Assembly: GCA_008375315.1 (NCBI GenBank)
Contig: CP032507.1
Span: forward strand, 2,417,001-2,481,000
From: Ectothiorhodospiraceae bacterium BW-2
GTDB lineage: Bacteria; Pseudomonadota; Gammaproteobacteria; Thiohalomonadales; Thiohalomonadaceae
DNA: 64,000 nt
Direction: 5' to 3'
Each line of letters starts with the position of its first letter. Within the stretch, counting starts at the first letter, position 1. Position numbers and translations under genes: made by a program. Below, in pieces: positions 42,184 to 62,823 of this stretch. The notes beneath the pieces were generated by a model, which was not told where the DNA came from, did no database searches, and saw only the letters and a list, made by a program, of their open reading frames with translations.

Positions 42184-42195
42184 GGAGAGAATCCA

Positions 42196-43761: not shown

Positions 43762-43782
43762 TCACTTGTCTGTTAGCTAAGC

Positions 43783-43818
43783 GTGAGAACCGTGAGAACT
43801 GTGAGAACCGTGGAGAGA
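43783..43818. repeat. 9-bp direct repeats upstream of cheB
   Basis: GTGAGAACC, GTGAGAACT and GTGAGAACC follow each other, then a diverged GTGGAGAGA, just before the cheB start at 43823. The last unit supplies a GGAGAG ribosome-binding site, so the array may tune cheB translation. Confidence 0.8.
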
Positions 43819-43822
43819 GAGC

Positions 43823-44890: not shown

Positions 44891-44903
44891 GAGGGGGAGA
44901 GAG

Positions 44904-45536
44904 ATGGGATTGGTAAAATCAAAACAGCCGCCAGTGACGGGTAGCGAGGTAGAGCGACGCCACCTGCAACGGACTCTGGAGGAGCTGCGTCAACTTCTGC
45001 AACAGGGAGAGGCGGCTGAACGGCGCTGGGCGGCACGCGATCTAGCCTCCTGTGGCGAGGCAGCGGTTGAGGGTCTGATTCGGGCGCTACCGGCTGAGAC
45101 AGTGTTAGTGGTGCGGGAGGCGATTTTAGATGCCCTCTTAACGATTGGGGGCCGAGGCGTGATTGAGGGGCTCATTCCACTACTGCGCAGCGATGATGCG
45201 GCGCTGCGCAACGGCGTGATTGAGGTGTTGCAGGGGATGCCCGACGATATCGCCCCCTACATGGCACAGATCCTCGCGGATGAGGACTCCGATGTGCGCA
45301 TCTTTGCCATTGATATCTTGCAGATGCTCTCGCATCGCAGTGGCCCGCAGTGGCTATTGGAGGTCATAGAGCGGGAGAGTCATGTCAATGTCCTCGCCGC
45401 CGCGATAGATCGTTTAGCCGAAGTCGGCACACCGGAGATGATCCCAGCCCTAGAGCGGCTGAGGCAGCAGTGGCAGCAGCAGCCCTTTATCAGCTTTGCG
45501 ATTAAAGCGGCGATTCAACGGATAAACGGAGCTTAA
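44904..45536 (+). CDS. HEAT-repeat protein in the chemosensory operon
   Basis: A 210-residue helical-repeat protein from the ATG at 44904 (GAGGGGGAGA upstream). HEAT-like units include RRWAARDLASCGEAAVEGLI, VREAILDALLTIGG, LRNGVIEVLQGM and VRIFAIDILQML. HEAT repeats make protein-binding scaffolds; there is no catalytic motif. Sitting between cheB and cheR, it could organise or regulate the adaptation enzymes. An upstream frame extends to 44811 but overlaps cheB. Confidence 0.75.
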   Translation: MGLVKSKQPPVTGSEVERRHLQRTLEELRQLLQQGEAAERRWAARDLASCGEAAVEGLIRALPAETVLVVREAILDALLTIGGRGVIEGLIPLLRSDDAALRNGVIEVLQGMPDDIAPYMAQILADEDSDVRIFAIDILQMLSHRSGPQWLLEVIERESHVNVLAAAIDRLAEVGTPEMIPALERLRQQWQQQPFISFAIKAAIQRINGA

Positions 45537-45537
45537 G

Positions 45538-46410
45538 ATGTCTTTTAACAGGGCGGTCGGAGATAAAAACAGCACTATTTCTGAGCTAAGCGACGCCGAA
45601 TTTGCCCGTTTTCGCGATTTTTTCTATCGCAAGACCGGTATCTACTTTGAAGAGAGCAAACGCTACTTTGTCGATAAACGGGTCATTCAGCGCATTGAAG
45701 CGACAGCTAGTGATAGCTTTCGGGACTACTTTACCCTGCTGCGGTTTCAGGCCTCAGGGGAGGAGCTCCAGCAGCTCATCAATCTGTTGACCGTTAACGA
45801 AACCTACTTTTTTCGCGAGGAGTACCAGTTTCAGTGCATGGTGCGCTCGGTACTGCCGGAGATCGTGCGCCATAAACCGCTCGGGGAGCGGATGAGAATC
45901 TGGTCGATCCCCTCATCGACCGGCGAAGAGCCCTACTCAGTCGCCCTCTATCTCCTAGAGCATTGGGCCGATATTAACCGTATCGATGTTGAACTAACTG
46001 GCTCCGATATCGATAGTCGGGTACTAGAGCGGGCACAGAAGGGGATCTTTAATGCCCGTTCGGTTAACCATCTGCCGCGCCACATTCTTAACCGCTACTT
46101 TACCCCCTTAGTGGGCGACAACTACCAAATCAGTACCGATCTGCGCGAGTCGGTCGAGTTTAAACTACTGAATTTAACCGATGGCACCGCCACCCGCTAC
46201 TACCGCAACTATGATGTCATCTTTTGTCGTAACCTATTGATCTATTTTGATGACACCTCACGCCGCCAAGCCGCTGAATCGCTGTTCGATGCACTAAGGC
46301 CGGGAGGTTTTCTGTTTTTGGGCCATTCGGAATCGATGAGCCGGATTTCGTCACTGTTTACAGTGCGCAAGTTTCCAGAAGCCATCGCCTACCAGAAGCC
46401 GCTGAGCTAG
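45538..46410 (+). CDS. cheR: Chemotaxis protein methyltransferase CheR
   Basis: A 290-residue S-adenosylmethionine-dependent methyltransferase that methylates receptor glutamates. It has an N-terminal helical domain (SDAEFARFRDFFYRKTGI) and a Rossmann domain with SSTGEEPYSVALYL (SAM-binding), TGSDIDSRVLERA and CRNLLIYF. It starts one base after the HEAT gene. Confidence 0.96.
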   Translation: MSFNRAVGDKNSTISELSDAEFARFRDFFYRKTGIYFEESKRYFVDKRVIQRIEATASDSFRDYFTLLRFQASGEELQQLINLLTVNETYFFREEYQFQCMVRSVLPEIVRHKPLGERMRIWSIPSSTGEEPYSVALYLLEHWADINRIDVELTGSDIDSRVLERAQKGIFNARSVNHLPRHILNRYFTPLVGDNYQISTDLRESVEFKLLNLTDGTATRYYRNYDVIFCRNLLIYFDDTSRRQAAESLFDALRPGGFLFLGHSESMSRISSLFTVRKFPEAIAYQKPLS

Positions 46411-46436
46411 ATAAGAGAAGTATTGAGGAGTAATCG

Positions 46437-46805
46437 ATGACCCGCGTTCTGATTGTAGATGATGCGCTGACGGTAAGAATGTACCATCGTCAGCTGATGG
46501 AGCAGCTCGGCTTTGAGGTCGATGAGGCCTCTAACGGCATTGAGGCGCTGGAGAAGGGGCTAAGCACACGCTATGAGCTCTTTATCGTCGATGTCAATAT
46601 GCCGAAGATGGATGGCTATCGACTGGTGCAGGAGATGCGAAAAAATGGGGCGCTGCAACATATTCCGGTCATTATGGTCAGTACCGAGGCGCAGCTAAGA
46701 GACCGAGAGCAGGCGCTACTCGCTGGCGCTAACTTCTATGTGGTCAAACCGGCCGATCCCGACTCGTTGCAACTGCAGGCTCGTCTGCTAGCGGGGGAGG
46801 TGTAG
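46437..46805 (+). CDS. CheY-like single-domain response regulator
   Basis: A 122-residue receiver with the phospho-acceptor Asp52 (VDVNMPKMDG), acidic pocket Asp8/Asp9 and Lys104. It lies directly before cheA (one base between) and is a likely CheA target controlling a motility motor or acting as phosphate sink. Confidence 0.93.
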   Translation: MTRVLIVDDALTVRMYHRQLMEQLGFEVDEASNGIEALEKGLSTRYELFIVDVNMPKMDGYRLVQEMRKNGALQHIPVIMVSTEAQLRDREQALLAGANFYVVKPADPDSLQLQARLLAGEV

Positions 46806-46806
46806 C

Positions 46807-49464
46807 ATGAATCCACTGTTAAGCGCCTTTATCGCCGAGGCGCGAGAGTTACTGGAGCTAGCCGGAGCACGCTTTTTAGATCTGGAGCAGTCGCCCCCCG
46901 ATAACGACGAGCTAATTAACGAACTATTTCGGGCGATTCACACCATCAAAGGGGCGTCGGGGCTGTTCGATATCGTCCCGTTTACCAAAGTGGTGCACGC
47001 TGCTGAAGATGTGCTCGATAAGGTGCGGGCAGGTAAACTGCAACTTAACTCTGAACATATCGATCTACTCCTCGATGCGATGGATCAGGTCGGCGCTTGG
47101 CTCGATGAGCTACAGGCGCAGGAGGCGCTAGCCGCCTCAGCCGCCGGACGCAGTGCGGCGCTGGTGCAGCAGATTCGACAACTGCTCAATAGCTGCAGTG
47201 AGGCCCCTGATACCCCTGATACCCCTGACCCCCTTCATGCTATCGACGCGAACACAGCCGCCGCACCGCTAGAGCGACCCGAGTGGCTAACAGCCGTGCC
47301 GGAGGAGCTAAGAGGTGAACTCTATCAGCAGTCACAGCCGCTACTAGCACTCGTCTATGAGCCGGATGAGGAGTGCTTTTTTCAAGGCCACGATCCGCTG
47401 TTTACGCTGCAAAATCTACCGGGGATGGTCTGGTTTACCCTCCAGGCGCGGCAGAAGTGGGGAGATCTAGAGCAGCTCGATCCATTTCGTTGCAACCTAC
47501 GCCTCTTTGCCCTAACAACAGCGGCGACAGAAGAGGTTGAAGAGTATCTGCGCTATGTCCTAGAGGAGGTGACCCTCACCCCCATCGCCCCCCAACAGCT
47601 CATTGAGCCGCAGGGGGCGAGGGGCGATAGAGCACCGTTTGGACTCTTTATCGAAGATAGTCGAGAGCTGGTGGCCACACAGAACTGGCAAGGGTTGCAG
47701 CAGGCGTGCCACATTGTACTGCAAAGTAGTGGTAGCGAGCTCATTCAGAGCTCGGCACTGCGCTGGTTAGTGCGCCTATTTTCTCGAGGAGAGCCGCCGA
47801 TCGCCTGGGTAGAGGCGCTGCTACAGGTGGTCGCGGGCGACGAGTTTACCCCCCCCGCGACTCAACCCGACGCTGTCGATGAGACAACTTCGGTTGCCGC
47901 TAAACGCATGGCGTTACAGATGGTGGCCGAACAGCAGCCGCTACTCTCACTCCCATGGGAGGCTCAGATGTGGCCCGGACGCATCGCCTCGGTAGTGACC
48001 GTGGTGCAGCGACTGTTAGCGGCCATAGGGGCGGAGGGCGAGGCGGCGGCGCTCGACAATGCCCACCAAGAGGCGTTAGCGACCCGTAGTGGGGATCCGC
48101 TACTAAAATTTATTCAGCAGCTAGTCGAGAGCCACACACCGGCGGCTGTGGCCGATCCTGAGCGGATCGAGACGATCATCCCAGAGGGGGGGGCTCAGAG
48201 CGCGGCGGATGAGCCAAGCGGCGTGGCGCGGCGCAACAGTCAGACCAATACGAACACTATGTTTCGTACCTTAAAGGTCGATCAAGAGCGGATCGATAAC
48301 CTCATGGATCTAGTCGGCGAACTGGTCGTGGCCAAAAATGCGCTGCCGTTTCTAGCGAAAAGGGCGGAAGATAGGTACGGTATGCGCGAGCTGGCGCGGG
48401 AGATTAAGGGGCAGCACGCGGTGATTAACCGTCTGGCCGAAGATCTGCAATACGCGGTGATGCAGGTGCGAATGGTGCCGGTTAGTAGCGCCTTTCAACG
48501 CTTTCCGCGCCTAGTGCGCGATATCTCACGCAAGTTAGGCAAACAGGTGAAGTTTCTAACCCAAGGCGAAGAGACCGAAGCGGATAAAAATATCGTAGAA
48601 GATCTGGCCGATCCCTTAATCCATCTAGTCCGTAATAGTCTTGATCACGGGATTGAAGTGCCCGAGGTGCGCCAGCAGGCGGGTAAAGCGGCCGAAGCGC
48701 AGCTCATACTACGGGCGACACAGCAAGATGATCGGGTACTGATTGAAATTATTGACGATGGCAAAGGGATCGATCCGGAGGTCATTAAGCAGCTAGCCTA
48801 CGCTAAAGGGCTGATTAGCGAAGAGGTGGTCGAGACGATGAGCGACCACGAAGCGATTCAGCTCATCTTTGCCGCCGGCTTCTCTACCGCAGAGAGGATC
48901 TCTGATCTCTCCGGACGCGGGGTCGGTATGGATGTGGTGCGCAGTACCGTACAGCGAGTCGGCGGTAGCGTGGTCGTAGAGAGTGAGAAGGGCCGGGGAA
49001 CAACGGTGCGCCTCTCGCTGCCGCTCTCAATGGCGGTCACCCGAGTGATGATGATTCGGGTCGGTAACGAAGATTTCGGCATCGCCTTTGATGCGGTCAG
49101 AGAGACCGTTCGTATCCCGAAACGGGAGATTCGCTATATCAAACAGCAAGAGAGCGTGATCCTGCGAAATCGCCTGCTGCCACTGTTTCGGCTACGACAG
49201 CTACTATCGATCCAGCTAGCCGATGAGAGTGAGCAGCCGCTAGAGCTCTCGGCCGAGGAGCGAGAGATTGCGATTTTAGTGGTGACCATTAATGGCGAGA
49301 GCGTCGGCCTCATTGTCGATGATTTCCACGAGGGGACTGACATTATCCTTAAACCGCTAGAGGGGGTCATGTCGGGCTTTAACCTCTACTCCGGCACGGC
49401 CCTACTAGGCGATGGTCGAGTGCTGTTGGTACTAAATCTGAAGGAGCTAATGCGATGCCGATAA
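46807..49464 (+). CDS. cheA: Chemotaxis histidine kinase CheA
   Basis: An 885-residue CheA. Domains: N-terminal HPt with phospho-His45 (RAIHTIKG), a long middle region (about 140-490) that replaces the classic P2 domain and contains an ECFFQGHDPL module, then dimerisation (LKVDQERIDNLMDLVGELVV), HATPase (DPLIHLVRNSLDHGIE, GRGVGMDVV) and a C-terminal CheW-like domain (LPLFRLRQLLSIQ). It phosphorylates CheY proteins. The large mid-region is unusual compared with about 650 residues in E. coli. Confidence 0.95.
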   Translation: MNPLLSAFIAEARELLELAGARFLDLEQSPPDNDELINELFRAIHTIKGASGLFDIVPFTKVVHAAEDVLDKVRAGKLQLNSEHIDLLLDAMDQVGAWLDELQAQEALAASAAGRSAALVQQIRQLLNSCSEAPDTPDTPDPLHAIDANTAAAPLERPEWLTAVPEELRGELYQQSQPLLALVYEPDEECFFQGHDPLFTLQNLPGMVWFTLQARQKWGDLEQLDPFRCNLRLFALTTAATEEVEEYLRYVLEEVTLTPIAPQQLIEPQGARGDRAPFGLFIEDSRELVATQNWQGLQQACHIVLQSSGSELIQSSALRWLVRLFSRGEPPIAWVEALLQVVAGDEFTPPATQPDAVDETTSVAAKRMALQMVAEQQPLLSLPWEAQMWPGRIASVVTVVQRLLAAIGAEGEAAALDNAHQEALATRSGDPLLKFIQQLVESHTPAAVADPERIETIIPEGGAQSAADEPSGVARRNSQTNTNTMFRTLKVDQERIDNLMDLVGELVVAKNALPFLAKRAEDRYGMRELAREIKGQHAVINRLAEDLQYAVMQVRMVPVSSAFQRFPRLVRDISRKLGKQVKFLTQGEETEADKNIVEDLADPLIHLVRNSLDHGIEVPEVRQQAGKAAEAQLILRATQQDDRVLIEIIDDGKGIDPEVIKQLAYAKGLISEEVVETMSDHEAIQLIFAAGFSTAERISDLSGRGVGMDVVRSTVQRVGGSVVVESEKGRGTTVRLSLPLSMAVTRVMMIRVGNEDFGIAFDAVRETVRIPKREIRYIKQQESVILRNRLLPLFRLRQLLSIQLADESEQPLELSAEEREIAILVVTINGESVGLIVDDFHEGTDIILKPLEGVMSGFNLYSGTALLGDGRVLLVLNLKELMRCR

Positions 49465-49709
49465 ATTTTTTAAAGACAGTGGCCAAACTAGAGGGGCGCT
49501 GCGAGGTCGATGAAGCGGAGACACTATTCGAGTGGTTACAGGAGCACCCTGGAGGGCGGGTCAATCTAAAAGAGTGCCAAGCGCTGCACGCAGCGGTCGT
49601 ACAGGTATTAATGGCGCTTAAACCGCCGATTTCGGTCGCACCCGACGACAAGGCGCTGCAAAGGTGGTTAATGCCGGTCGTGGCACCGGAGGGGGTGAGG
49701 GAGGGCTAG
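49455..49709 (+). CDS. Small STAS-like protein after cheA
   Basis: An 84-residue protein overlapping the end of cheA by ten bases. The segment RVNLKECQALHAAVVQVLMA resembles the helix-strand core of STAS domains, seen in other chemotaxis operons. Function is not established; a role in CheA regulation or array assembly is plausible. It ends before a nested hairpin. Confidence 0.55.
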   Translation: MPINFLKTVAKLEGRCEVDEAETLFEWLQEHPGGRVNLKECQALHAAVVQVLMALKPPISVAPDDKALQRWLMPVVAPEGVREG

Positions 49710-49777
49710 CGCTCTGCGTGGGGGGGTTACACACCGCACGATTTAGGTTAGACTAAATCGTTATGAAACACAGAGCG
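49710..49777. other. Nested inverted repeats before the parA-like gene
   Basis: CGATTTAG (49739-49746), loop GTTAGA, CTAAATCG (49753-49760) form a perfect 8-bp stem. Around it CGCTCTG (49710-49716) pairs with CAGAGCG (49771-49777), so a nested stem can form. It lies just upstream of the ParA-like ATPase and may be an mRNA structure or a protein-binding site. Confidence 0.6.
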
Positions 49778-49782
49778 ACTCC

Positions 49783-50556
49783 ATGAATCGACCTACCGTG
49801 GTTGCGGTCTCAAATCGCAAGGGCGGCAGTGGTAAAACCACGACGGCAGTTAACCTTGCTGCCCAGTGGGCTGTGAGTGGTTGGCGGACGCTGCTCATTG
49901 ATCTCGATACCCAGAGCCATAGCGCCATCGGACTAGGGATAGAGGTAGAGCGTAGCGGGGCGATACATCGACTGTTTGACACCCCTAGCTATACCCTACA
50001 GCAGGGTCAGTTAGCGACAGCGCTTAACAACTTGACCCTTATTGGTGCCGATATCGACTATGAGACCCGGGTCGCCTCCCCCGACTATACTCTCCTACAA
50101 CGGCAGCTACATGAGGGGTGGGTAGCCGAACAGTTTGATCGGGTGGTACTTGATACCCCGCCGACCTCCGATCTGCTGCTCATTAGCGCCTTAGCGGCTG
50201 CGGATGGGGTGTTAATCCCCTTTGTTCCGCACCATTTAGCGGCGGTTGGGGTCAATCAGCTCGCGAGACTCTTCTACCGAGTGGCCACGCGCTACAACCC
50301 CTCGCTGCAACTCATCGCGCTGCTGCCGGTGATGGTCAACCGTAACTTTACCCTACAGCGTAAAGTGTTAGACGAGCTGGCGATACAGTTTGGCAAGGGG
50401 CGACTTTTGCGCGGTATTCGCACCAATATCCGCCTAGCTGAGGCGTTTGCCGCCGGAGAACCGATCTGTCGCTTTGCGCCGCGCAGCCCTGGCGCGATGG
50501 ACTATCAGCTACTCGCCGATGAGCTAGAGACGGTGTGGTTAAATAACAGAACCTGA
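49783..50556 (+). CDS. ParA-family ATPase, likely chemosensory array positioning (PpfA/ParC-like)
   Basis: A 257-residue deviant-Walker ATPase with SNRKGGSGKTTTAVNLAA, LDTPPTS (Walker B region) and LLPVMVNR. Such ParA proteins in chemotaxis operons (PpfA of Rhodobacter, ParC of Vibrio) partition cytoplasmic or polar clusters. No ParB gene is adjacent. Its position between the CheA cluster and the second CheY supports array positioning. Confidence 0.8.
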   Translation: MNRPTVVAVSNRKGGSGKTTTAVNLAAQWAVSGWRTLLIDLDTQSHSAIGLGIEVERSGAIHRLFDTPSYTLQQGQLATALNNLTLIGADIDYETRVASPDYTLLQRQLHEGWVAEQFDRVVLDTPPTSDLLLISALAAADGVLIPFVPHHLAAVGVNQLARLFYRVATRYNPSLQLIALLPVMVNRNFTLQRKVLDELAIQFGKGRLLRGIRTNIRLAEAFAAGEPICRFAPRSPGAMDYQLLADELETVWLNNRT

Positions 50557-50586
50557 TTTTTTGGTGTTAATTTAGGATAAGTACTG

Positions 50587-50958
50587 ATGAAGACAATACT
50601 ACTGGTCGATGACTCCTCGACAATACTGTTGAGTATGGGCGATATTTTAACTAAGGCTGGCTTTAAGGTTGAAAAGGCCTCCAATGGCAAGGAGGCGCTG
50701 ACCAAACTACAATCGGGGCTAAAGCCCAATTTAGTGATTACCGATGTCAATATGCCGCTAATGAACGGCATTGAACTGGTACGGGAGGCGAAAAAGCTCC
50801 CCGGCATGCGCTTTACGCCGATGCTGGTGTTAACGACCGAATCGCAGCAGTCGATGCGGGATGAGGGCAAAAAGGCTGGCGCAACCGGCTGGCTGGTCAA
50901 ACCGGTCAATTCAGCACAGCTACTACAGGTGGTAAAACAAGTTGTCCCAGGTGCTTAG
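50587..50958 (+). CDS. CheY-like response regulator (second)
   Basis: A 123-residue receiver with phospho-acceptor Asp53 ([11 protein letters not shown]), Asp8/Asp9 and Lys105. It lies between the ParA-like gene and the membrane receptor gene. It may be the motor-binding CheY of the system, or a sink. Confidence 0.93.
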
Positions 50959-50969
50959 AAGAGGAGAGC

Positions 50970-52292
50970 GTGGCTGTGGCAAATCTCAATAGCAGTGATA
51001 AGGGGACTCGAAGCCTAGATCATAAAAGTACCCTTCGCTACTCCACTGCGGTCACCAAAAGTTTTATTTTGGTATCGCTAGCGGCGATTATCCCCTACTG
51101 GATTGTCGTCTATGCGATCCATGGCTGGCTGATTGCACTTGAGGGGATCGGCTCCTTCTCTGCCGGCGCAACACATGCGTTTGTATTAATGGCTCTTGGC
51201 GTGATTTTCGGACTCTTTGCCACAGTCGGTTTCTACCTTATCTCCTATCAGCGCCATAAGAGCGGTAGTCAGTTTTTTATTATGAGCAGCGAAGGGATGA
51301 TGCGTCAGGCGCAGTTGGAGCTAGCGCTACAGGATCTGACTGAGATGATTGGTGCTTTTCGCAATATCTTGATCGAATATGAGACACCGCTGAACCGTAT
51401 TGCCAGTGATACCGAAGCCTCGGCCATCGATATGGTCAATCGCACCCGAGAGCTGGATCAGACCGCCCAAAAGCTGGTTGATTACCTAAGTGGTTCCGAT
51501 TTTGATGCGGCCGATATGCAGGGGGAGATTCAGAAAAATACCGAAAGCATTAAAAAGATTGCCGACTATATCACCCAACTGCCGGCGCAGTTAGAGCAGG
51601 ATCATGCCGCCGTGCAGAACTTGATGCAGGAGGTCTCTAATCTCAGCGGCATGATCAACACCATCAAAGAGATTAGTGAACAGACCAACCTGTTAGCGCT
51701 GAATGCCGCGATTGAGGCGGCGCGGGCGGGCGACTCGGGGCGGGGATTTGCCGTCGTGGCTAGTGAGGTGCGGCAGTTAGCCAAAAAGTCAGCTGAAGCG
51801 GCTGATGAGATTGAGCAGCGGATTAAATCGGCTCACAGAGTTGTGAGTGAGAGCCTCAGTAAGCAGGATGTGAATGCGGTGGATGAGCTACAGCAGGCAG
51901 CTGGGGTAAACACCTTTATCCATAAGCTCTACGAGAGTTATGAGGATATGCGTCAATTCTATAAGACGCTGCTAACGGTCAGCACCGAGCATAATGTCAG
52001 ATTAGCCGAGGGGATTGTCGATATGCTCGGTTCGATTCAGTATCAGGATGTGGTGCGGCAGCGAATTGAACGGCTGAACGAGGCCAATGGTGAGGCGATA
52101 GCCCAGCTCGATGCGATACGGCAGCTACTCCATGATCAGCAGTTTGGTCAGCTTACCGCAGTGTTGCAAGAGATAGAGCAGATGGCGCAGAGATATCGCC
52201 AAAATGAGCAGCGCCATGTAACGAGTTCAGGCCAGAGTGCGGGTGACAGCAATAGCGCTGAGGAGGCGCTGCCACAAATTCAGCTCTTTTAA
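50970..52292 (+). CDS. Membrane chemoreceptor with short periplasmic loop
   Basis: A 440-residue GTG-started chemoreceptor. Two membrane helices (about 30-50 and 67-91) flank only a short loop, so there is no periplasmic sensor domain. The signalling tip [20 protein letters not shown] (about 231-250) is canonical. The C-terminal part has [15 protein letters not shown], shared by a receptor subclass lacking a full second half. It ends the plus-strand chemosensory operon and is convergent with the stressosome genes. Confidence 0.85.
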
Positions 52293-52382: not shown

Positions 52383-53012
52383 CTACAGCACAGGATTGTG
52401 ATAGTAGAGCAGCAGACCGGCATCATCGGTAGAGCGCCCCCACTGCTTGAGTAGCTGATCGGCAATCGACTCAAAATCAAATTCGGCACCACAGTTAGGA
52501 TCGAAGCTGAGGCCGGGGGGGAGCTGTAGCTGCTCACTAATGCCATCGGTATGAAGAAGTAGCAGTGTACCGGGGAGTAGGGTCAAGTTTTGAATATGGA
52601 GGTGGTGGTAGCCGCCGCCGACAATACCCGGATCGGCATAAATATGGTGCCTGTCACTATCGTGGGGGTAGATAATGGCAACCACATTGCCCACTCCGGC
52701 TATCCTCGCCCGATTATCACTAAGCTCTATCTGGGTCATCGCGACGCCACGGGTTGAGCGCAGCGCCTCGTTACAGACAGCAAAGCGCTCACTCATCGGC
52801 CACTGCAGATGATGTTTGCTACACTCTATCGCCGCTAGTGCCGCCCGCTCCGCTTCGGGGCCATGGCCTAGACCATCGACTAAAATCAGATAGGTGGTGT
52901 GGTCGCTGTGTACTATCGTGGCTTGATCACCGCACCGAATCTGCCCCGGATAGGGGCGAGTTTTTATAACAACATGGCCATGGCAGGAGGAGGCATCGGT
53001 TAGCGATCCCAT
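52383..53012 (-). CDS. rsbX: RsbX-like PP2C-type serine phosphatase
   Basis: A 209-residue SpoIIE/PP2C phosphatase with metal-binding ILVDGLGHG (about 43-51), GVGNVVAI and LHTDGISEQL. Its size matches Bacillus RsbX, which dephosphorylates RsbS and RsbR to reset the stressosome. It overlaps the RsbT-like kinase upstream by 13 bases and is the last gene of the module. In many proteobacteria the two are fused into one protein. Confidence 0.85.
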   Translation of the reverse strand: MGSLTDASSCHGHVVIKTRPYPGQIRCGDQATIVHSDHTTYLILVDGLGHGPEAERAALAAIECSKHHLQWPMSERFAVCNEALRSTRGVAMTQIELSDNRARIAGVGNVVAIIYPHDSDRHHIYADPGIVGGGYHHLHIQNLTLLPGTLLLLHTDGISEQLQLPPGLSFDPNCGAEFDFESIADQLLKQWGRSTDDAGLLLYYHNPVL

Positions 53013-53413
53013 TTAATAGCCTCAATGCGGGTCTCTCCCCCCTTTTGGGAGTCGATAGTAAACTCATCGGCCAGCCGCCTAACCCCCGGAAGTCCACCGC
53101 CGAGGCCGCCGCAGGTGGAGTAGCCATCCTGCATCGCTAGGGTAATATCGGCAATGCCAGGGCCTTGATCGACCGCTTCGACTCGCACCCCCTTGCGGGG
53201 CGGCTGGTAGAGTGGTATGAGATGGATGATGCCGCCGCAGCCGGCGGTGTGGAGTACTAAATTGTAGGCCAGTTCAGAGACGATAGTCGCTACCGAGTGG
53301 CGGCTGATATTTCGTAGCCCCATCTCTCGCCCTATCTGTAGAGCTCGATTGCGAACTAGTGCAACATCGTACTCAATACGGACAACATAGTCGAAGGGAG
53401 GGGGGGCGCTCAT
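53000..53413 (-). CDS. RsbT-like serine kinase, second copy
   Basis: A 137-residue HATPase of the anti-sigma/RsbT group with the N-box SELAYNLVLH, the G1 box VDQGPGIAD and the G2 box GLGGGLPGVRRLA. Overlap with rsbX (13 bases) suggests that the two form the split version of an ATP-binding/SpoIIE-type fusion. It differs from the first RsbT in the N-box region and may act on a different partner. Confidence 0.85.
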   Translation of the reverse strand: MSAPPPFDYVVRIEYDVALVRNRALQIGREMGLRNISRHSVATIVSELAYNLVLHTAGCGGIIHLIPLYQPPRKGVRVEAVDQGPGIADITLAMQDGYSTCGGLGGGLPGVRRLADEFTIDSQKGGETRIEAIKWDR

Positions 53414-53416
53414 CGG

Positions 53417-53842
53417 TTAGTGGCCAATGGCGCGACTCATAATCGCCGTCACTCGGGTATGGCCGGGTGATGACTCTATCTCGAACTGATCGACTAGCCG
53501 TCGGGTGCCGGGTAGGCCGACACCGAGGCCGTTGCCGCTGCTGTAGCCATCTTGCATGGCCTGTTCAATATCGGCAATCCCGGGGCCAAAATCTTCGGCG
53601 ACAATCTCGATATGGGTCAGATTCTGCTCCCGATAGCTACAGATATGGCACACCCCCTCACCGGCATAGTTGAGAATATTGCGGGCAAGCTCCGAAATCG
53701 CGGTGGCGAGCCGAGTCTGATCGACAATTCTAAAACCGAGCTTTTTGGCTAAGGTGCGGCCCTCTTGTCGTGCCTGAATAATATCGTCCGGTTTGACAAT
53801 CGTCACTTTAAAGATATCGAGTGGTGTGGTAGAGAGCCTCAT
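53417..53842 (-). CDS. rsbT: Stressosome serine/threonine kinase RsbT
   Basis: A 141-residue protein with SELARNILNYA, EDFGPGIADIEQAMQDG and GLGVGLPGTRRLVD, all matching RsbT. RsbT phosphorylates RsbS and RsbR after stress and is then released to activate its output partner. It overlaps rsbS by four bases. The output partner may be the hybrid kinase at 55309. Confidence 0.9.
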   Translation of the reverse strand: MRLSTTPLDIFKVTIVKPDDIIQARQEGRTLAKKLGFRIVDQTRLATAISELARNILNYAGEGVCHICSYREQNLTHIEIVAEDFGPGIADIEQAMQDGYSSGNGLGVGLPGTRRLVDQFEIESSPGHTRVTAIMSRAIGH

Positions 53843-54270
53843 CGACGAGGGAGCCCTGCCGGTCGCGTGGGGTCTGTCGTCGCGGCCGGTTTGGGTTTGA
53901 GAGCTAGAAAGCTATCGAGCCGCTCTTTGCCTACTAGCTTCTCTAAGCCGTGGTTGAGATTGAGCGCCGTTTCGACCCCCTCTAGCTCACGCCCCATATC
54001 GACTAGAGTGAGGGCGACAGCCGGCTGCATACCGCAGATAACTACCCGACAACCGAGCAGGCTAATCATGTGCGCCGTTTCGCTTAAAATTCGTGCCATG
54101 TAGGAGTCAACCACATCGAGCGCACTAATATCGATGACGGCACCGTTCGCATCGTAGTTCTGCACCATCGTTAACATATCCTCCCGAAAACGGGAGAGAT
54201 CTTGATCGTTAAGATCGACCTGAATAGAGGTTAAAAGCAGGTGGCGGATTCTAAGAATAGGGACTCGCAT
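53839..54270 (-). CDS. rsbS: Stressosome scaffold protein RsbS
   Basis: A 143-residue STAS protein with LDVVDSYMARIL; Ser56 corresponds to the phosphorylated Ser59 of Bacillus RsbS. The core is followed by a Pro-rich C-terminal tail absent from Bacillus RsbS. It forms the stressosome with RsbR and holds RsbT. It overlaps rsbT by four bases. Confidence 0.88.
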   Translation of the reverse strand: MRVPILRIRHLLLTSIQVDLNDQDLSRFREDMLTMVQNYDANGAVIDISALDVVDSYMARILSETAHMISLLGCRVVICGMQPAVALTLVDMGRELEGVETALNLNHGLEKLVGKERLDSFLALKPKPAATTDPTRPAGLPRR

Positions 54271-54331
54271 AGGCTGACTGACTTGGGCAAGTTAAACAGT
54301 AACAGGGGGCATGGCAGTAGGAGAGGAACGC

Positions 54332-55189
54332 TTATTGGCTCTCATTGCCGATATGTTTACCGAGGCGGGTAAAGGCCTCCTTAACGCCGCTCTTTAGGCT
54401 CCCTTTGGTGGTCATATTCTGCATATTGACCCCTAACTCGGTCATGGTTTGGGCATTGGTCGGGCTAATACCGGTTAAAATCACCTCCGCACCGAGCATT
54501 CTGGCGGCGGTAATGGTCTTAATCAGGTGGCGACCGACCTGGGTGTCGATAATCGGTACACCGGTGACATCGAGAATAGCAATAGAGGCCTCGTTAGCAA
54601 CGATGCTCTCTAACAGCGATTCGATAATGTGCTGGGCGCGAATGGTATCGACCACCCCGACTAGGGGGAGCAGAATCACCTGATCCCAGAGCTTAATCAC
54701 CGGTGTGGCTAATTCGAGCAGGCTCTCCGATTGCTGACGGATAAACTCCTCCCGTTTTTTAGAGTAGATATCGAGGGTAATTAGCCCCATCTGATCGACT
54801 AGGCGCTGAATAGTGCGACTTAACTGCAGTAGCTGCGGCAGATTAGTCTCAAAGTGGCGGTCGAGCAATCTTTGTATGACATCTTTAAGCACAAAGATAA
54901 AAGAGGCGGTCTCTGTGGGGCTAAACCCGCGCGAGACGCGGCTAGTGCTAATCTCCTGTAGGAGCTGATAGAGTTCGTGATTCTGTTCGACATCCTCTAT
55001 CTGGCCTCTCTCGAAGCTGCGAATCGTGATACTAAGCAGCGAGGAGGTCTCGTTACTGAGCTCCTGACGGCTCATCAACTCTAACAGCCGGTTACCGGTA
55101 GAGAGCAGTGCCGCCTCTATCCACTCCTGTTGTAGCTGTTGTCGAGCATGGGACATCAAGGCCGCAAGTTCTGTCAAAGGCTGCGTCAT
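54332..55189 (-). CDS. rsbR: Stressosome sensor RsbR (RsbRD-type N-terminus)
   Basis: A 285-residue protein with an N-terminal helical (RsbRD-like) sensor domain (about 1-150) and a C-terminal STAS domain (about 165-280) with VTGVPIIDTQVG. Thr216 in that motif fits the conserved STAS phosphorylation position (Thr205 in Bacillus). No globin or PAS domain is present in the N-terminus, so the signal is unknown. It heads the module and diverges from the hybrid kinase. Confidence 0.88.
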   Translation of the reverse strand: MTQPLTELAALMSHARQQLQQEWIEAALLSTGNRLLELMSRQELSNETSSLLSITIRSFERGQIEDVEQNHELYQLLQEISTSRVSRGFSPTETASFIFVLKDVIQRLLDRHFETNLPQLLQLSRTIQRLVDQMGLITLDIYSKKREEFIRQQSESLLELATPVIKLWDQVILLPLVGVVDTIRAQHIIESLLESIVANEASIAILDVTGVPIIDTQVGRHLIKTITAARMLGAEVILTGISPTNAQTMTELGVNMQNMTTKGSLKSGVKEAFTRLGKHIGNESQ

Positions 55190-55308
55190 AAAAATTGACT
55201 CCTGAATCAGTTAGCCATAATGTAACGGCCACCTAGACCGATGACACCGTTTAATTATGGACTAATTTTTCTCTATTAGCAAAGATAACTAACTATGGTG
55301 ACCCTACT

Positions 55309-57111
55309 ATGAGCCCGCTGGCCTCCGAATCGATCACTGCCGCTGAACAGGAACACTACTGCCAGATTTTGCAACAATTTTTGGCCGAAGGGAGTGAAAC
55401 GGCGCTGATGGAGGCGACCGAGCTAGGGCGGGCGATGGTGGCTCGTGGTGTCCCTCCCGAGGAGGCGATTGAGCTGCATCAGTTAGCGCTAGAGCAGCAG
55501 GTGTTAAGAGCGCGGGGAGGCGTCGCTGAGCTTATTGAGAGTTCGACCGCGCTGCTCTATGAGATGATTATGGCCTATGGTATCGCCTTTCGAGCCCATA
55601 TCGAACTGCTACAGCGACGGCAGCGAGCCAATTTGGAGTCGATTACCGAGCAGTCGGACGAGATGGTGGTACTCACCGATCGCGCTGGCAGAGTCGAGTA
55701 TGTCAATCGTGCCTTTAGTGACATTACCGGCTATCGTCGCAGCGCGGCACGACAGATGGCGCTAGTCGAACTACTCGGGCTAGAGGTGGGAGAGCGGCAG
55801 CTACTACAGCGCAGTATCGAGTCGGCCGAGCGCTTTAGCCGACGCCTACAGCATGTTGATGCGAAGGGGCAGCCCTATGTCACCGATACCGTCTTCTTTC
55901 CGCTACGGGATCACCAGCTACAGTTGAGCAACTTTGTGCTAGTCGGGCGCGATATTACCCACAAGGTGGCGATGGAGCGCGATCTACAACAAAAATCGCA
56001 GCGACTAGAGGCGATCGGGACGCTAGCGGCCGGTATTTCGCACGACTTCAATAATGTACTGGGGATGATTTTAGGTTACGCCTCGCTGCTCAATGCGTCG
56101 TTGCGGCAGCAGGAGGATCGTGACAACTTAGCGCAGATTCGCGCGGCGGCAGAGCGGGGGCGTGAGCTAGTCGAGCAGATTCTCGCCTTCTCCCGTCCGG
56201 GGCGAGAGAGGGTGCGCAAGGCGATACCGCTAGCCAAAATAGTTCGAGAGACCTTAAGCCTACTGCGCGGGAGCTATCCGCACAGGATAGCGTTTGAGAT
56301 TGACGCGAATGATGACTCATTGACCGTCTGGGCGGTCTCGACCCACCTGACCCAGCTAGTGATGAATCTGGCGGTTAACGCGCTACAGGCGATGCAGCTA
56401 GAGGGGGGGCAGCTAACGGTGAGTGTGGCGCGACAGGGGGAGTCGGTCATGCTAAAGGTGGCCGATAGTGGCCCTGGTATCGCAGCTGAGATTCGCGAAC
56501 GGATCTTTGATCCCTTCTTCACCACCAAAGAGGAGGGGGAGGGGACTGGGTTGGGTCTATCGGTGGTGAGTGATATTATTCGCCGCTATCGTGGCTCGGT
56601 CGATATCGACTCCCAGTTGGGTCGGGGGACGACCTTTACGCTCCTGTTTCCGCTGTGTGGATCGGAGGGGGGGGCGATGGCAGCGATAGAGCCGCCGCCG
56701 GTGATAGCCGACCCACCGAGGGTCGCTAGCGAGCGCCAAGCGACGCCTGCCCATCTTGTCGTGGTCGATGATGAGCTATCGATGCTACAACTAGCGGGTG
56801 AGGTATTGCAGGGGGCCGGTTATCGGGTGACACTGGAGTCGAGCGCCTGGTCGGCGCTACGAACGCTCTACGCTGAGGAGGCCGCGCTACTGATTACCGA
56901 CCGCGAGATGCCAGAGCTCGATGGGGTGGAGCTAGTGAGGCGCGTTCACGGCCTAAAGCCAGAGCTGCCGCTGCTGATGTGGACCGGTCACCCCGATGAG
57001 GCGAGTGAGCAGGCGGCGAGAGAGTACGGCGTGGCAGAGATTCTCTATAAACCGGTCGATTTTGACCGACTAAAAGCCGTTATTGAAACCATAACCCGGG
57101 AGTTAAATTAG
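55309..57111 (+). CDS. Hybrid histidine kinase with RsbU-like N-terminal domain
   Basis: A 600-residue protein. Residues 10-100 ([48 protein letters not shown]) match the RsbT-binding N-terminal domain of Bacillus RsbU. Then come a PAS domain (about 115-220), HisKA with His245 ([11 protein letters not shown]), HATPase ([19 protein letters not shown]) and a C-terminal receiver with Asp531 ([13 protein letters not shown]). RsbT from the adjacent module may control the kinase. A separate receiver gene follows two bases later. Confidence 0.88.
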
Positions 57112-57113
57112 CT

Positions 57114-57482
57114 ATGGCAAGAGTAATCGTGATGGATGATGAGCAGAGTATGCGTGATATGGTCAGACAGATGCTCACCAAAGATGGTCATCAGGTGACC
57201 ATCGCAAGTGATGGCGGGGAGGGGCTGAAAACTATGCGGGGGGGAGGGTTCGATCTAGCCATTATCGATATTCTCATGCCGGGCAAAGATGGCATAGAGA
57301 CGATGATTGAGATTAAACGCAGCTACCCGACGACCAAAATTATTGCCATGTCGGGGGGGCGTCGCGGGATTAAAGCCTCATTTAACCTCGATTCGGCGGT
57401 ATTAATGGGGGCCGATGCGACCCTACCAAAGCCGTTTGAGTGGCCGCAACTGCGAAGTGCCGTGCAAAAGTTGGGTCTATAA
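57114..57482 (+). CDS. Single-domain response regulator after hybrid kinase
   Basis: A 122-residue receiver with Asp52 (IIDILMPGKDG), acidic pair Asp8/Asp9 and Lys in TLPKPFEWP. It directly follows the hybrid kinase and is its likely phosphorylation partner. Nothing in the sequence gives its own output. Confidence 0.9.
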   Translation: MARVIVMDDEQSMRDMVRQMLTKDGHQVTIASDGGEGLKTMRGGGFDLAIIDILMPGKDGIETMIEIKRSYPTTKIIAMSGGRRGIKASFNLDSAVLMGADATLPKPFEWPQLRSAVQKLGL

Positions 57483-57561: not shown

Positions 57562-60387
57562 ATGCCCTCTAACCCGCCAGAAAACGCCTCAGACGAGCGA
57601 TTTGCCAAAGCGTTTAACCACAGTACTGTTGCGATGGCGATGACCGATATTGAGACCGGTAGCTACCTCGATGTCAATGAGGCCTTCTGCTCGACTACCG
57701 GTTATCGCAGCGAGGAGGCGCTAGGGCGAACTTCGCTAGAGTTAGGTATCTGGAAAGAGCCTAAGCAGCGGCAACAGCTCATTGAGCAGGTGTTGGCTCA
57801 GGGGAGTGTGACCGGGGTGAGGGTGACGATACGACATCGTGACGGCAGTGACATTCACGGTGTCTTTAGCGTTTCGCTGTTACCGCTACAGCAGCGGCAG
57901 GTACTCTTAACCCAATTTGTCGATGTCACCCGGCAATATCTAGCTGAGGCGGCGCTGAAGGCCGAGCGCGATCTCTTCATCGGTGGCCCGGTGGTGGTGC
58001 TGATCTGGCTCCCCGAACCGGAGTGGCCGATCCTCTACGCCTCGCCCAACGCTACTCATCTATTTGGCTATAGTCTTGAGGCGTTAACTGAGGGATCGTT
58101 CCCCTTTAGCCAATTAATCTCGCCTAAAGATGGGGCGCGTGTCGGCTCGGAGGTGGAACACTATCTGGCCGCAGGCTACCCCTCTTGGGAGCAGCGCTAC
58201 CGCATTGTGCGCCAAGATGGCAAGGTGCGCTGGCTTTATGACTTTACCGTCGTTGAGCAAGATAGCGATGGCCGAGTGAGCCGACTTCGTGGCTATGTGA
58301 TGGACGAGACCCACCGCATCGCCTCAGAGGAGCGATTACGGCTCGCCTCGCTCGCTTTTGAGCAGGCGAAAGAGGGGATTATCATCTGCGATTCGAACGG
58401 CAACATTATTGAGGTAAATAGCGCCTTTAGCCATGTGACCGGCTACAGCGCCGTCGATGCGATTGGCAAAAATCCACGCCTCTTAGCCTCCGGTCGCCAC
58501 GACTCACCGTTCTATCGCAAAATGTGGCGCGACATTGAGACCTGCGGCTACTGGCAGGGCGAGTTGTGGAATCGTAAAAAGTCCGGTGAACTCTACGCCT
58601 GTTTAATGAGTATCTCCACCCTAAGCGGCAGCGAGGGGGGGCTGGGCTACTATCTGGCCATCTTTACCGACATTACCGAAAATAAGCGTCACCAAGAGAA
58701 GCTGGAGCTAATGGCCCACTTTGATGCCCTCACCTCACTCCCTAATCGGGTGCTGCTAGCCGACCGACTGCGACAAGAGATGGTTCGAATGCGGCGAAAG
58801 GGGCAGCTTTTGGCCGTCTGCTACCTCGATCTCGATGGCTTTAAGCCGATTAACGACCACTATGGCCACGATCAGGGGGATAGGGTCTTAATCGAGATCG
58901 CCTCACGGCTGAAGCTAACTTTGCGAGAGGAGGATACCGTCGCCCGTATAGGGGGGGATGAGTTTGTCCTGCTGTTAACCGATCTCGACTCCAAGCAGGA
59001 GTGTGAACAGATCATACAGCGGCTGCTGCGTCGCATTAGCGAACCGATAGTCAGTGAAGGGCAGTCGATGGCGGTCTCCGGCAGTATCGGCATTACCTTC
59101 TATCCTGAGGATAATAGTGGCAGCGACGCCCTGCTCTGTCACGCCGATGTGGCGATGTATCGCGCCAAAATGGCCGGTCGTAACGGCTTTGCGTTCTATG
59201 AACTGTGTCGTGAATCGTCGCAAGATGAGCGCCAGCAGCTATTGCGGCAAGCTGAACAGGCGCTGCAGCGGGGCGAGTTTGAGCTCTACTACCAGCCTAA
59301 GGTCGATATGCGACACGAGGAGGTGGTCGGCATGGAGGCGCTGATTCGCTGGAACCACTCTGAAAATGGCCTCATGCTGCCGCTACAGTTTCTACCCCAA
59401 CTAGAGGGGGATCTGCTACAGCAGCAGCTCGACTGGTGGGTGATACAGCAGGCCATTGCACAATTAGTTCAGTGGCAACGGCAGGGGCTAATGGTTCCGG
59501 TGAGTGTTAACCTGAATGGCGCGACCCTCATGCAGAAGGGGTTTATACGCCAGCTCGACACCCTGCTGCAGGCAGAAGAGATAGGCGTTGCTAACTACTT
59601 AGAGCTGGAGATCGTCGAAACCTCGGCGCTGGAGGATATCGAAAAGATTAGCGAGATATTTCGCCAGTGTCAGGCGCGGGGAATGACGATTGCACTCGAC
59701 GATTTTGGCACCGGCTTCTCATCGCTGATCTATTTTCGGCGCCTGCCGGTCGATGCTTTGAAAATAGATCAGCAGTTTATTCGCAATATGATTAATGACC
59801 CCGAAGATATGGCCATTGTGGAGAGTGTGATAGGGTTAAGTCGCGCCTTCGGTCGCCAAGTCGTGGCGGAGGGGGTTGAGCTGGGTGAGGTGGGTAGTTT
59901 TCTGCTACAGATGGGGTGTGACATTGCCCAAGGGTATGCCATTTCGCAGCCACTGCCGGCGGCTGATGTGGCGGCTTGGATCGAGAGCTACCGCGCCGAA
60001 AGTCGCTGGCACGAGTTTATGCAGGCGCAGTGGTCGGAGCAGGAGCTAACCCTGAAACTACTGGAGCGGGAGCATCGCCGCTGGGTTAGCGAAGTTCAGC
60101 AGTGGCTGACGCATCGCCCCCACAGCCTCTACTACCCCCCGCTACTCGATCCGCACCAGTGTCGTGTTGGGCGCTGGCTCGATGTTAGCGGCAGAAAACA
60201 GTTGGCCGATCACCGCCTTTTTATTGAGTTGGTACGGTGCCACGATGAGGTGCACCAGCTAGCGCGAGAGCTGTTTGAGAGCCGTCACCTCTCCGATAAG
60301 CTCTCTTCGGCACAGTTAGAGCAGTTTCTACAAGCCAGTGAGGCGTTGCTAGAGATATTACAGCAGTTAAATAGTGAGTTAGAGTGA
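57562..60387 (+). CDS. PAS-GGDEF-EAL protein with C-terminal CZB zinc-binding domain
   Basis: A 941-residue cytoplasmic c-di-GMP enzyme. Three PAS-like domains (about 10-125, 135-255 and 262-385) precede an intact GGDEF (464-468) with I-site RxxD (455-458). The EAL domain has EAL (592-594), DDFGTG (713-718) and Lys734, so synthesis and breakdown are both possible. The C-terminus (about 830-935) is a CZB domain with His838, His865, Cys867, Trp872 and His894/His898, a zinc-binding fold that responds to zinc or hypochlorous acid. It overlaps the CheW-CZB gene by four bases. Confidence 0.9.
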   Translation: MPSNPPENASDERFAKAFNHSTVAMAMTDIETGSYLDVNEAFCSTTGYRSEEALGRTSLELGIWKEPKQRQQLIEQVLAQGSVTGVRVTIRHRDGSDIHGVFSVSLLPLQQRQVLLTQFVDVTRQYLAEAALKAERDLFIGGPVVVLIWLPEPEWPILYASPNATHLFGYSLEALTEGSFPFSQLISPKDGARVGSEVEHYLAAGYPSWEQRYRIVRQDGKVRWLYDFTVVEQDSDGRVSRLRGYVMDETHRIASEERLRLASLAFEQAKEGIIICDSNGNIIEVNSAFSHVTGYSAVDAIGKNPRLLASGRHDSPFYRKMWRDIETCGYWQGELWNRKKSGELYACLMSISTLSGSEGGLGYYLAIFTDITENKRHQEKLELMAHFDALTSLPNRVLLADRLRQEMVRMRRKGQLLAVCYLDLDGFKPINDHYGHDQGDRVLIEIASRLKLTLREEDTVARIGGDEFVLLLTDLDSKQECEQIIQRLLRRISEPIVSEGQSMAVSGSIGITFYPEDNSGSDALLCHADVAMYRAKMAGRNGFAFYELCRESSQDERQQLLRQAEQALQRGEFELYYQPKVDMRHEEVVGMEALIRWNHSENGLMLPLQFLPQLEGDLLQQQLDWWVIQQAIAQLVQWQRQGLMVPVSVNLNGATLMQKGFIRQLDTLLQAEEIGVANYLELEIVETSALEDIEKISEIFRQCQARGMTIALDDFGTGFSSLIYFRRLPVDALKIDQQFIRNMINDPEDMAIVESVIGLSRAFGRQVVAEGVELGEVGSFLLQMGCDIAQGYAISQPLPAADVAAWIESYRAESRWHEFMQAQWSEQELTLKLLEREHRRWVSEVQQWLTHRPHSLYYPPLLDPHQCRVGRWLDVSGRKQLADHRLFIELVRCHDEVHQLARELFESRHLSDKLSSAQLEQFLQASEALLEILQQLNSELE

Positions 60388-61205
60388 TGGAGAGAAGAGG
60401 GGACTATCTTGTTTGCCGTATTGCCGAGTTTAAATACGCTCTGCCGATTGAGATGATTATCGAAATCACCGAATCGAATAAACTCCAGCCGACGACACTA
60501 CCTAACAGCCTGAAACATGTGCGCGGTATCGTCAATTTTCGCGGTGAAATTATCCCGATTTACGATCTACGGGTCTTTAATCATCTACCATCGTATCGCG
60601 ATAACCAGCGTTCGTTGTGCCGCACATTGGCCGAGCGGGAGCAAGATCACCGTCACTGGTTACAGGAGCTAGAGAACTCGGTGGTTGAGCAGCGCCCCTT
60701 TACGCTGCAAACAGATCCCCATCAATGCGAATTTGGCCTCTGGTACGACCGATTTACGACCGATAACCCGCGCCTAGAGGAGGTGCTTCGCCAGTTCGAT
60801 CGGCCCCATAAGGCGATTCATGCCCTAGCTAAGCAGGTAGAGATCATGCTACGGCAGGGGGCGCGGCAGCAGGCGTTAACGCTCATAGAACAGTCGCGCC
60901 ATACCACCTTGTCCGACTTAATTGCGCTATTTGAGCAGGCGCGGCAAGAGGTGAGTGACTATAGCCGTGAGGTGGTCTTTGTGATTGAGGAGCAGCAGCA
61001 GAAGATCGGCATCACTATCGATGAGATTATTGATGCTATAACGGTGCAGGAGAGCGACCTGATGCTTTCAAACGAGATCGATGAGAGTCAGCTCTCCGAT
61101 TGTGTCATCTCCCATGGCGACAGTGTGGCGGTAGTGATCAATAGCTTTGCTCCGGTACTGCCGCCGCCGTTAGTAGCAGACGAAGAGTCAGGAGCGTTTG
61201 ATTGA
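60384..61205 (+). CDS. CheW protein with an inserted CZB zinc-binding domain
   Basis: A 273-residue protein in which one CheW fold is split by a CZB domain. The CheW N-terminal half has FKYALPIEMIIEI and GIVNFRGEIIPIYDLR (about 15-63); the C-terminal half has VVFVIEEQQQKIGITIDEII (about 197-216). The insert (about 85-195) has His89/His91, DPHQCEFGLWY (His113, Cys115, Trp120) and His142/His146. Zinc or oxidant binding could alter coupling to CheA. The start is GTG at 60384 or ATG at 60387, overlapping the previous stop. Confidence 0.85.
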   Translation: MMERRGDYLVCRIAEFKYALPIEMIIEITESNKLQPTTLPNSLKHVRGIVNFRGEIIPIYDLRVFNHLPSYRDNQRSLCRTLAEREQDHRHWLQELENSVVEQRPFTLQTDPHQCEFGLWYDRFTTDNPRLEEVLRQFDRPHKAIHALAKQVEIMLRQGARQQALTLIEQSRHTTLSDLIALFEQARQEVSDYSREVVFVIEEQQQKIGITIDEIIDAITVQESDLMLSNEIDESQLSDCVISHGDSVAVVINSFAPVLPPPLVADEESGAFD

Positions 61206-61632: not shown

Positions 61633-62823
61633 ATGAAAATGGGTACTGGCGTTTCGACGCAAGGGGAGACCGAGGCGGCGATAGCAGAGATTGTCGCCCA
61701 GCTCGAACAGAGGGGTGGGGATAGTGTGGATCTGCTTATCTGTTACTACACCGAAAATCATGCGCCGGCGCGGCTACAGCAGGTATTGACTCAACTCTAT
61801 CCTAAGAGCCAGATTCATGGCTGTAGCACCTGTCAAGGGGTGATGACCGAGCAGGGCTACTTTAGCGAGCAGGGTTCTGCAATCGCGGTGTTAGCTATCT
61901 CTGATCCAGAGGGGAGCTACGGCAGTGCCCTAGTTCCGATGGCCGACGGTGGCGAGTTGGGGGGACGGCAGGCGATTGAGGCGGCCATTGCCGGTGCCGA
62001 ACGGGAGGGGGAGAGCCCTGAACTGGTCTGGTTGAGCGCCACCCCCGGCTGTGAGGAGAGTGTCATTATGGGTATTCAGCAGGTGATTGGTGATCAGACC
62101 CCGATCGCCGGTGGTAGCGCTGCCGATAATAGTGTGGCGGGGGGGTGGTCGCTCTTTAACCAGCAGCAGCAAGAGCGGCAGGGGGTATTGGTGACGGCGT
62201 TCTATCCCTCGGTGGAGCTCTCGTTCGCCTTTCACAGCGGTTACTATCCGACAGCGTTTCGCGGTGTGGTGACGCGCTCTAGTGGGCGGACAATTTGGGA
62301 GATCGATCACCAGTGCGCCGCCGCTGTCTATAACCGTTGGATCGACCACCGTCTCGATGAGGTGATCGCCCAAGGTGGGGGGAGTATTCTGTCGCAGACC
62401 ACACTCTTTCCGTTAGGACGGGTGGGGGGAGATGGCAGTCAGCGCTATAAACTGTCACACCCAGAGAGCATCACTGCCGCAGGAGGGCTGGCGCTCTTTA
62501 CCGATATGAGTGAGGGCGAGGAGCTAATTTTAATGGAGGGCTCTAGCGAGTCTCTCATTCATCGAGCCGGACGGGTGGCCGATGAGGCGTTAACGATTGC
62601 CGACATGGCTGCCGAGGGGTCGAGTGGCGCGTTAGTCATCTACTGCGCCGGCTGTATGTTGACAGTCGAGGCGCAGATGGGGGAGGTGGTCGAGTCGATC
62701 AAAAGCGCCATTCCAGCGGTGCCGTTTTTAGGTGCCTTCACCTTTGGCGAACAGGGCTGTTTTATCGATGCGGGCAATTTGCATGGAAATTTAATGATCT
62801 CGATCGTTATTTTTGGTCGTTAA
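61633..62823 (+). CDS. FIST-domain sensory protein
   Basis: A 396-residue stand-alone FIST protein with both FIST_N (CSTCQGVMTEQGYFSEQ, then ATPGCEESVI) and FIST_C (SGALVIYCAGCMLTVE, FLGAFTFGEQG). FIST domains are thought to bind small ligands such as amino acids and signal to kinases. A GAF histidine kinase begins seven bases later and is its likely partner. Confidence 0.9.
   Translation: MKMGTGVSTQGETEAAIAEIVAQLEQRGGDSVDLLICYYTENHAPARLQQVLTQLYPKSQIHGCSTCQGVMTEQGYFSEQGSAIAVLAISDPEGSYGSALVPMADGGELGGRQAIEAAIAGAEREGESPELVWLSATPGCEESVIMGIQQVIGDQTPIAGGSAADNSVAGGWSLFNQQQQERQGVLVTAFYPSVELSFAFHSGYYPTAFRGVVTRSSGRTIWEIDHQCAAAVYNRWIDHRLDEVIAQGGGSILSQTTLFPLGRVGGDGSQRYKLSHPESITAAGGLALFTDMSEGEELILMEGSSESLIHRAGRVADEALTIADMAAEGSSGALVIYCAGCMLTVEAQMGEVVESIKSAIPAVPFLGAFTFGEQGCFIDAGNLHGNLMISIVIFGR

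Follow-up and report, generated by a model that had tools for sequence, protein, structure and literature searches.

A hybrid histidine kinase with an RsbU-like N-terminal domain as the candidate output of a stressosome beside a chemosensory cluster in Ectothiorhodospiraceae bacterium BW-2

Introduction

RsbT, when released under stress, activates the Bacillus stress phosphatase RsbU through its RsbU_N docking domain. In alpha-, beta- and gammaproteobacteria, RsbU_N has also been described on signalling proteins whose genes follow RSTX modules, in architectures that include HisKA/REC phosphorelay outputs, and targeting of these proteins by RsbT was proposed (Heinz 2022, PMC9237108). A later study reported RsbU_N histidine kinases in operons with rsbT and modelled one from a gammaproteobacterium as a dimer with AlphaFold2 (AF2) (eLife 2025, PMC12143880). 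In the Moorella thermoacetica stressosome, as far as it is summarised in PMC12143880 (citing Quin 2012), the RsbU_N-GAF-GGDEF protein MtG is tied to RsbT, and in Vibrio vulnificus the RsbRSTX stressosome, which is accompanied by the D1/D2 two-component proteins, is linked to a two-component system and to motility (PMC9237108, PMC10014275).

Here we analysed a 64,000-nucleotide stretch of the Ectothiorhodospiraceae bacterium BW-2 genome (CP032507.1, 2,417,001 to 2,481,000; hereafter the window). As with the proteins of Heinz 2022 and eLife 2025, RsbU_N is found on a protein encoded with rsbR, rsbS, rsbT and rsbX, but in the window this is a hybrid PAS kinase that is divergent from the RST block, there are two RsbTs, RsbR has RsbRD_N instead of a globin, and a chemosensory cluster is attached. 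The locus shares RsbR, RsbS, RsbT, RsbX and the RsbU N-domain with the RsbRST-RsbU-RsbVW-SigB cascade of Bacillus subtilis, whereas its effector is a histidine kinase rather than a PP2C phosphatase and no RsbVW-sigma operon adjoins it. Like the Moorella system it has a non-phosphatase RsbU_N effector tied to RsbT, although MtG, in the account cited above, is a diguanylate cyclase and the effector here is a kinase. It likewise recalls the Vibrio arrangement, although VvD1 has no detected RsbU_N and no chemosensory cluster is described in that system. A preliminary description of the window had proposed that RsbT targets the kinase, and since the same core idea had appeared earlier for other Proteobacteria (PMC9237108, PMC12143880), its central proposal was known; what the present analysis adds is the chemosensory context of the stressosome-kinase-receiver block.

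Results

The kinase (window 55309 to 57111, plus strand) is 600 amino acids long, and Pfam together with alignment to its relatives resolved it into RsbU_N (residues 16-93), PAS (114-219), HisKA (237-298, with His245), HATPase_c (344-449) and a C-terminal REC (484-592, with Asp531), which is the composition of a hybrid histidine kinase. An RsbU-like RsbT-binding domain had previously been placed at residues 10-100 and this is borne out, as the RsbU_N domain (55354 to 55587, plus strand), putatively RsbT-docking by homology, matches PF08673 over profile positions 2-75 of 75 with 53.1 bits (E=3.6e-14; curated cut-off 25.5 bits), and single-sequence phmmer with residues 1-114 retrieved Bacillus RsbU from the PDB (2j6z, 2j70, 2j6y and 1w53; E from 1.9e-9 to 1.7e-7). 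The helix pairings with RsbU that had been drawn by eye also recur in the phmmer alignment, where IPPEEIISIH and IEVMIGYGMAY of RsbU are paired with 10 and 11 residues of the kinase, respectively. Using AF2 with 30 related sequences as input we obtained four helices at a pLDDT of 95, and Foldseek with this model ranked RsbU 2j6y first in the PDB; the structural comparison proposed earlier therefore agrees in fold and in best match, with Foldseek scores that are weak alone (E=0.37, probability 0.89, TM 0.46/0.59). In the AF2 models helix 4 of RsbU_N is continuous with the linker and unbroken up to the PAS edge (residues 72-114; 55522 to 55650, plus strand), and this helix is the counterpart of the RsbU linker, the region contacted by RsbT (PMC12143880). 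No second RsbU_N protein was detected elsewhere in the 4.07 Mb genome, leaving the kinase as sole carrier, which fits the earlier claim that output does not pass through an RsbU phosphatase.

Across the divergent intergenic region lies a minus-strand operon of adjacent or overlapping genes in the order RsbR-RsbS-RsbT1-RsbT2-RsbX, which constitutes an RsbRST(X) module. RsbR (54332 to 55189) comprises an RsbRD_N sensor and a STAS domain by Pfam, and RsbS (53839 to 54270) is a STAS protein that matches PDB 6jhk (E=2.7e-29). Alignment with solved homologues showed that the phosphorylatable residues are kept in both, with Thr216 and Thr248 of RsbR aligning with the T of IDT and AQT in solved RsbR, and Ser56 of RsbS, within a DSY motif, matched to DS in the RsbS chains of known structure. 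The switch kinase RsbT1 (53417 to 53842) and its paralogue RsbT2 (53000 to 53413) both have intact ATP-site motifs; RsbT1 keeps Arg25 and Arg29, the equivalents of the RsbU-contact residues R19 and R23, while in RsbT2 the R23/N24 positions are occupied by L and Q. The last gene (52383 to 53012) encodes an RsbX-like PP2C feedback phosphatase (SpoIIE, 30.3 bits, above cut-off), with phmmer orthologues at the same position. The placement of RsbR, RsbS and RsbT across the divergent gap in the preliminary description is confirmed, but the interval that it treated (53417 to 57482) leaves out RsbT2 and RsbX. A promoter scan of the divergent gap gave one weak site, no better than shuffles over a wider region. 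PDB searches with RsbT1 and RsbT2 returned no match for either, and the RsbT interface is consequently without a structural template. Twelve other loci, each with an RsbU_N effector, also have a tandem RsbT pair like that at 53000 to 53842 of the window, whose second copy has lost RsbU-contact residues.

We assessed docking of RsbT on the kinase indirectly, through co-occurrence and conservation at the interface. Among 369 gammaproteobacterial genomes RsbU_N is present in 8, which cover 7 families, strong stand-alone RsbT in 10, and both in 7 (7/3/1/358; Fisher p=5e-12, phylogeny ignored). RsbU E24 contacts RsbT (PMC12143880), and a glutamate stands at its position in every RsbU_N domain compared (30/30). 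At the position of Y28, where the Y28I substitution in Bacillus RsbU abolishes RsbT binding (PMC12143880), the window kinase has Met and the family is variable, and RsbU R91 is likewise not conserved in position. Within RsbT, R19 is kept in 13/13 and R23 in 12/13 RsbT1 copies, and both arginines in 80/80 single RsbTs, while RsbT2 copies retain R19 in 9/13 and R23 in 8/13. RsbT1 thus retains the RsbU-contact arginines whereas RsbT2 is relaxed at them, a contrast that favours RsbT1 as the likely kinase partner, with the reservation that RsbT2 is the more divergent paralogue overall. Taken with homology, co-occurrence and interface conservation make RsbT docking on the kinase a well supported prediction. 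In Vibrio no interaction was seen between RsbT and the neighbouring kinase VvD1, which does not carry RsbU_N (PMC9237108).

Genome G199 (locus L028) has lost the upstream switch naturally. RsbRST is gone and the RsbU_N kinase and receiver are retained; neither RsbT nor RsbS was found elsewhere in G199, and RsbX is present as a C-terminal fragment only (L028 8657-9002), without any sequence gap. RsbT may not be strictly needed, or the loss of RsbRST may be recent, which is conceivable because the RsbX fragment persists.

Examination of RsbU_N loci in Pseudomonadota showed RsbT within a few genes in 12 of the 15. Their effectors, typed from sequence and phmmer with a Pfam check on the window kinase and L035 only, are kinases, GGDEF or HD-GYP proteins, with no RsbU-type phosphatase among them. 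The PAS-HK-REC plan of the window kinase is found identically at L030, L032, L035 and L037, while RsbU_N is carried on a GGDEF protein at L035 and on HD-GYP proteins at L030, L031 and L032. At these last three loci RsbT is followed by two consecutive RsbU_N proteins, one of the HD-GYP type and the other a PAS-HK(-REC) kinase, and one RsbT may drive both effectors. In a scan of named genomes dominated by Bacillaceae, about 71/80 RsbT loci had an RsbU_N protein nearby. In a kinase-core tree, most branches of which are weakly supported, the other RsbU_N-PAS-HK-REC hybrids (L030, L032, L035-L037) form a clade that does not include the window kinase, and the PAS and REC of the window kinase may therefore have been gained independently. 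PAS-less kinases fall into two classes by the spacing between the YG/YD motif of RsbU_N and the catalytic His: one has values of 41, 55 or 83, each equal to 6 modulo 7, and the other 38 or 36. The pattern is suggestive of a coiled coil, but with so few values it is not reliable.

The stand-alone receiver (57114 to 57482, plus strand; Asp52), named as an output in the preliminary description, a reading that is supported here, has orthologues beside the RsbU_N kinase in other genera (L027, L028, L046 and L052), and the best other receiver in its own genome is a far weaker match to it than these orthologues are; on sequence comparison it is a conserved partner of the RsbU_N kinase family. As the kinases of these four loci are without REC, direct phosphotransfer from kinase to receiver would be the simplest reading. 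The gene 80 bases after the receiver encodes a PAS-GGDEF-EAL-CZB protein (57562 to 60387, plus strand; Pfam), a candidate c-di-GMP output by position. A CZB zinc-binding domain is present in both this protein and the neighbouring CheW-like protein (window 57562 to 61205), which suggests a shared zinc or oxidant input, and the cluster ends with a FIST-domain protein (61633 to 62823) that is likely a small-ligand sensor.

The stressosome-kinase-receiver block is attached at the end of a chemosensory cluster (40264 to 52292, plus strand) formed of MCP, triple CheW, CheB, HEAT, CheR, CheY, CheA, STAS-like, ParA, CheY and MCP genes. The order HEAT-CheR-CheY-CheA-STAS-CheY-MCP-RsbRSTT'X-kinase-receiver is common to L027 and L046, and G249 (L027), Allochromatium warmingii (L045) and Halochromatium (L046) all have the che order followed by RsbR-S-T-T2-X and an RsbU_N kinase, often with this receiver as well. 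Candidatus Anaeroferrophillacea (L052) and two Aureimonas (L054, L058) have rearranged versions. Because all cluster genes are co-directional in L027, L045, L046, L052 and L058, the divergent layout of the window is best read as a probable inversion of the RSTT'X block. The cluster marker gene was found in 9/369 gammaproteobacterial genomes; the chemosensory cluster is more widely distributed than the stressosome, and several of these genomes have the che genes without the stressosome block (e.g. L186, L187). The chemosensory cluster, with its HEAT, STAS-like and ParA genes, is conserved at L027, L028, L045, L046, L052, L054 and L058. Judged by gene order, RsbRSTT'X, kinase and receiver have been added on to this conserved cluster, an arrangement shared with Chromatiaceae, Aureimonas and Anaeroferrophillacea. 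At L185 (1205-6468; G232) the che cluster and receiver are retained, with transposase-like ORFs at the expected stressosome/kinase site. No description of a chemosensory cluster with a stressosome block was found in the literature searched, the scope of which excluded the main RST-module reviews; a link to aerotaxis has been mooted (PMC4260858).

Discussion

The reading that we favour, at a probability of roughly 0.7, is that this stressosome has a histidine kinase as its output in place of the RsbU phosphatase and acts on it through RsbT1, based on the domain homology, gene order, co-occurrence and residue conservation computed here. RsbR and RsbS would retain RsbT1 until RsbR senses a signal, upon which RsbT1 would phosphorylate RsbS and RsbR and be released. 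Released RsbT1 would then dock on the RsbU_N dimer of the kinase and the adjoining linker helix, and docking would presumably order the linker and shift kinase activity in one direction or the other. The kinase would phosphorylate the 57114 receiver, its presumed phosphotransfer target, and probably also its own REC, with RsbX resetting the complex. Given that a complete chemosensory operon adjoins the block, the chemosensory pathway would most likely be what the output modulates, with c-di-GMP as the second candidate.

Of the alternatives, a hybrid-kinase phosphorelay through which the neighbouring GGDEF-EAL protein would finally turn over c-di-GMP survives best, although we consider it rather unlikely. 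It would account for the position of that gene, and related loci carry RsbU_N directly on GGDEF or HD-GYP proteins; moreover, effects of the Vibrio vulnificus stressosome on motility and on fleQ would fit c-di-GMP (PMC10014275), and in Moorella, as cited in PMC12143880, RsbU_N and RsbT control a diguanylate cyclase. However, the GGDEF-EAL gene, which is the sole local basis for the c-di-GMP output claimed earlier, is less conserved in the cluster than the chemosensory genes and receiver. The multi-step phosphorelay that was also claimed would be unneeded, as most close relatives of the kinase are without their own REC and pair with a stand-alone receiver, and apart from the Hpt domain of CheA itself there is no Hpt protein in the block. 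With the adjacent gene and the Vibrio data a c-di-GMP output is plausible but not specifically supported.

It is improbable that RsbT2 docks in place of RsbT1, or that the two have split roles with one RsbT on the stressosome and one on the kinase: the recurrence of RsbT pairs with RsbU_N proteins and the intact ATP-site motifs of RsbT2 would favour this, but single RsbTs beside RsbU_N proteins resemble RsbT1, and it is in RsbT2 that the contact arginines are relaxed. We give similarly little credence to RsbU_N being a dimerisation module only, with PAS driving the kinase and RsbT acting elsewhere. The domain forms a dimer in RsbU (PMC12143880), a PAS sensor is already present in the kinase, G199 keeps RsbU_N with neither RsbT nor RsbS found, and several RsbT-contact positions vary, all of which favour dimerisation, yet against it stand the strong co-occurrence and adjacency of RsbU_N and RsbT, the invariant E24-equivalent, and the presence of RsbU_N beside RsbT on proteins as different as kinases, GGDEF and HD-GYP proteins. 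A phosphatase-type RsbU identity is excluded, as Pfam found HisKA-HATPase-REC and no PP2C/SpoIIE domain, and a chance resemblance to RsbU_N is excluded by the Pfam and PDB scores.

With RsbT1 acting on the kinase as the preferred reading, the locus provides a compact system in which switching of a histidine kinase by RsbT can be tested, which was previously claimed from sequence and modelling with no bench demonstration found in the literature searched, and the RsbT1/RsbT2 pair and the conserved receiver serve as built-in controls. We put forward only tentatively, as slightly short of an even chance, that several proteobacterial lineages have the duplicated-RsbT stressosome, RsbU_N kinase and dedicated receiver as one conserved module connected to the chemosensory operon, by which stress sensing by a megadalton complex and chemoreceptor arrays would converge on one output. 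If the chemosensory attachment is functional, two large bacterial sensory assemblies would be joined in one pathway.
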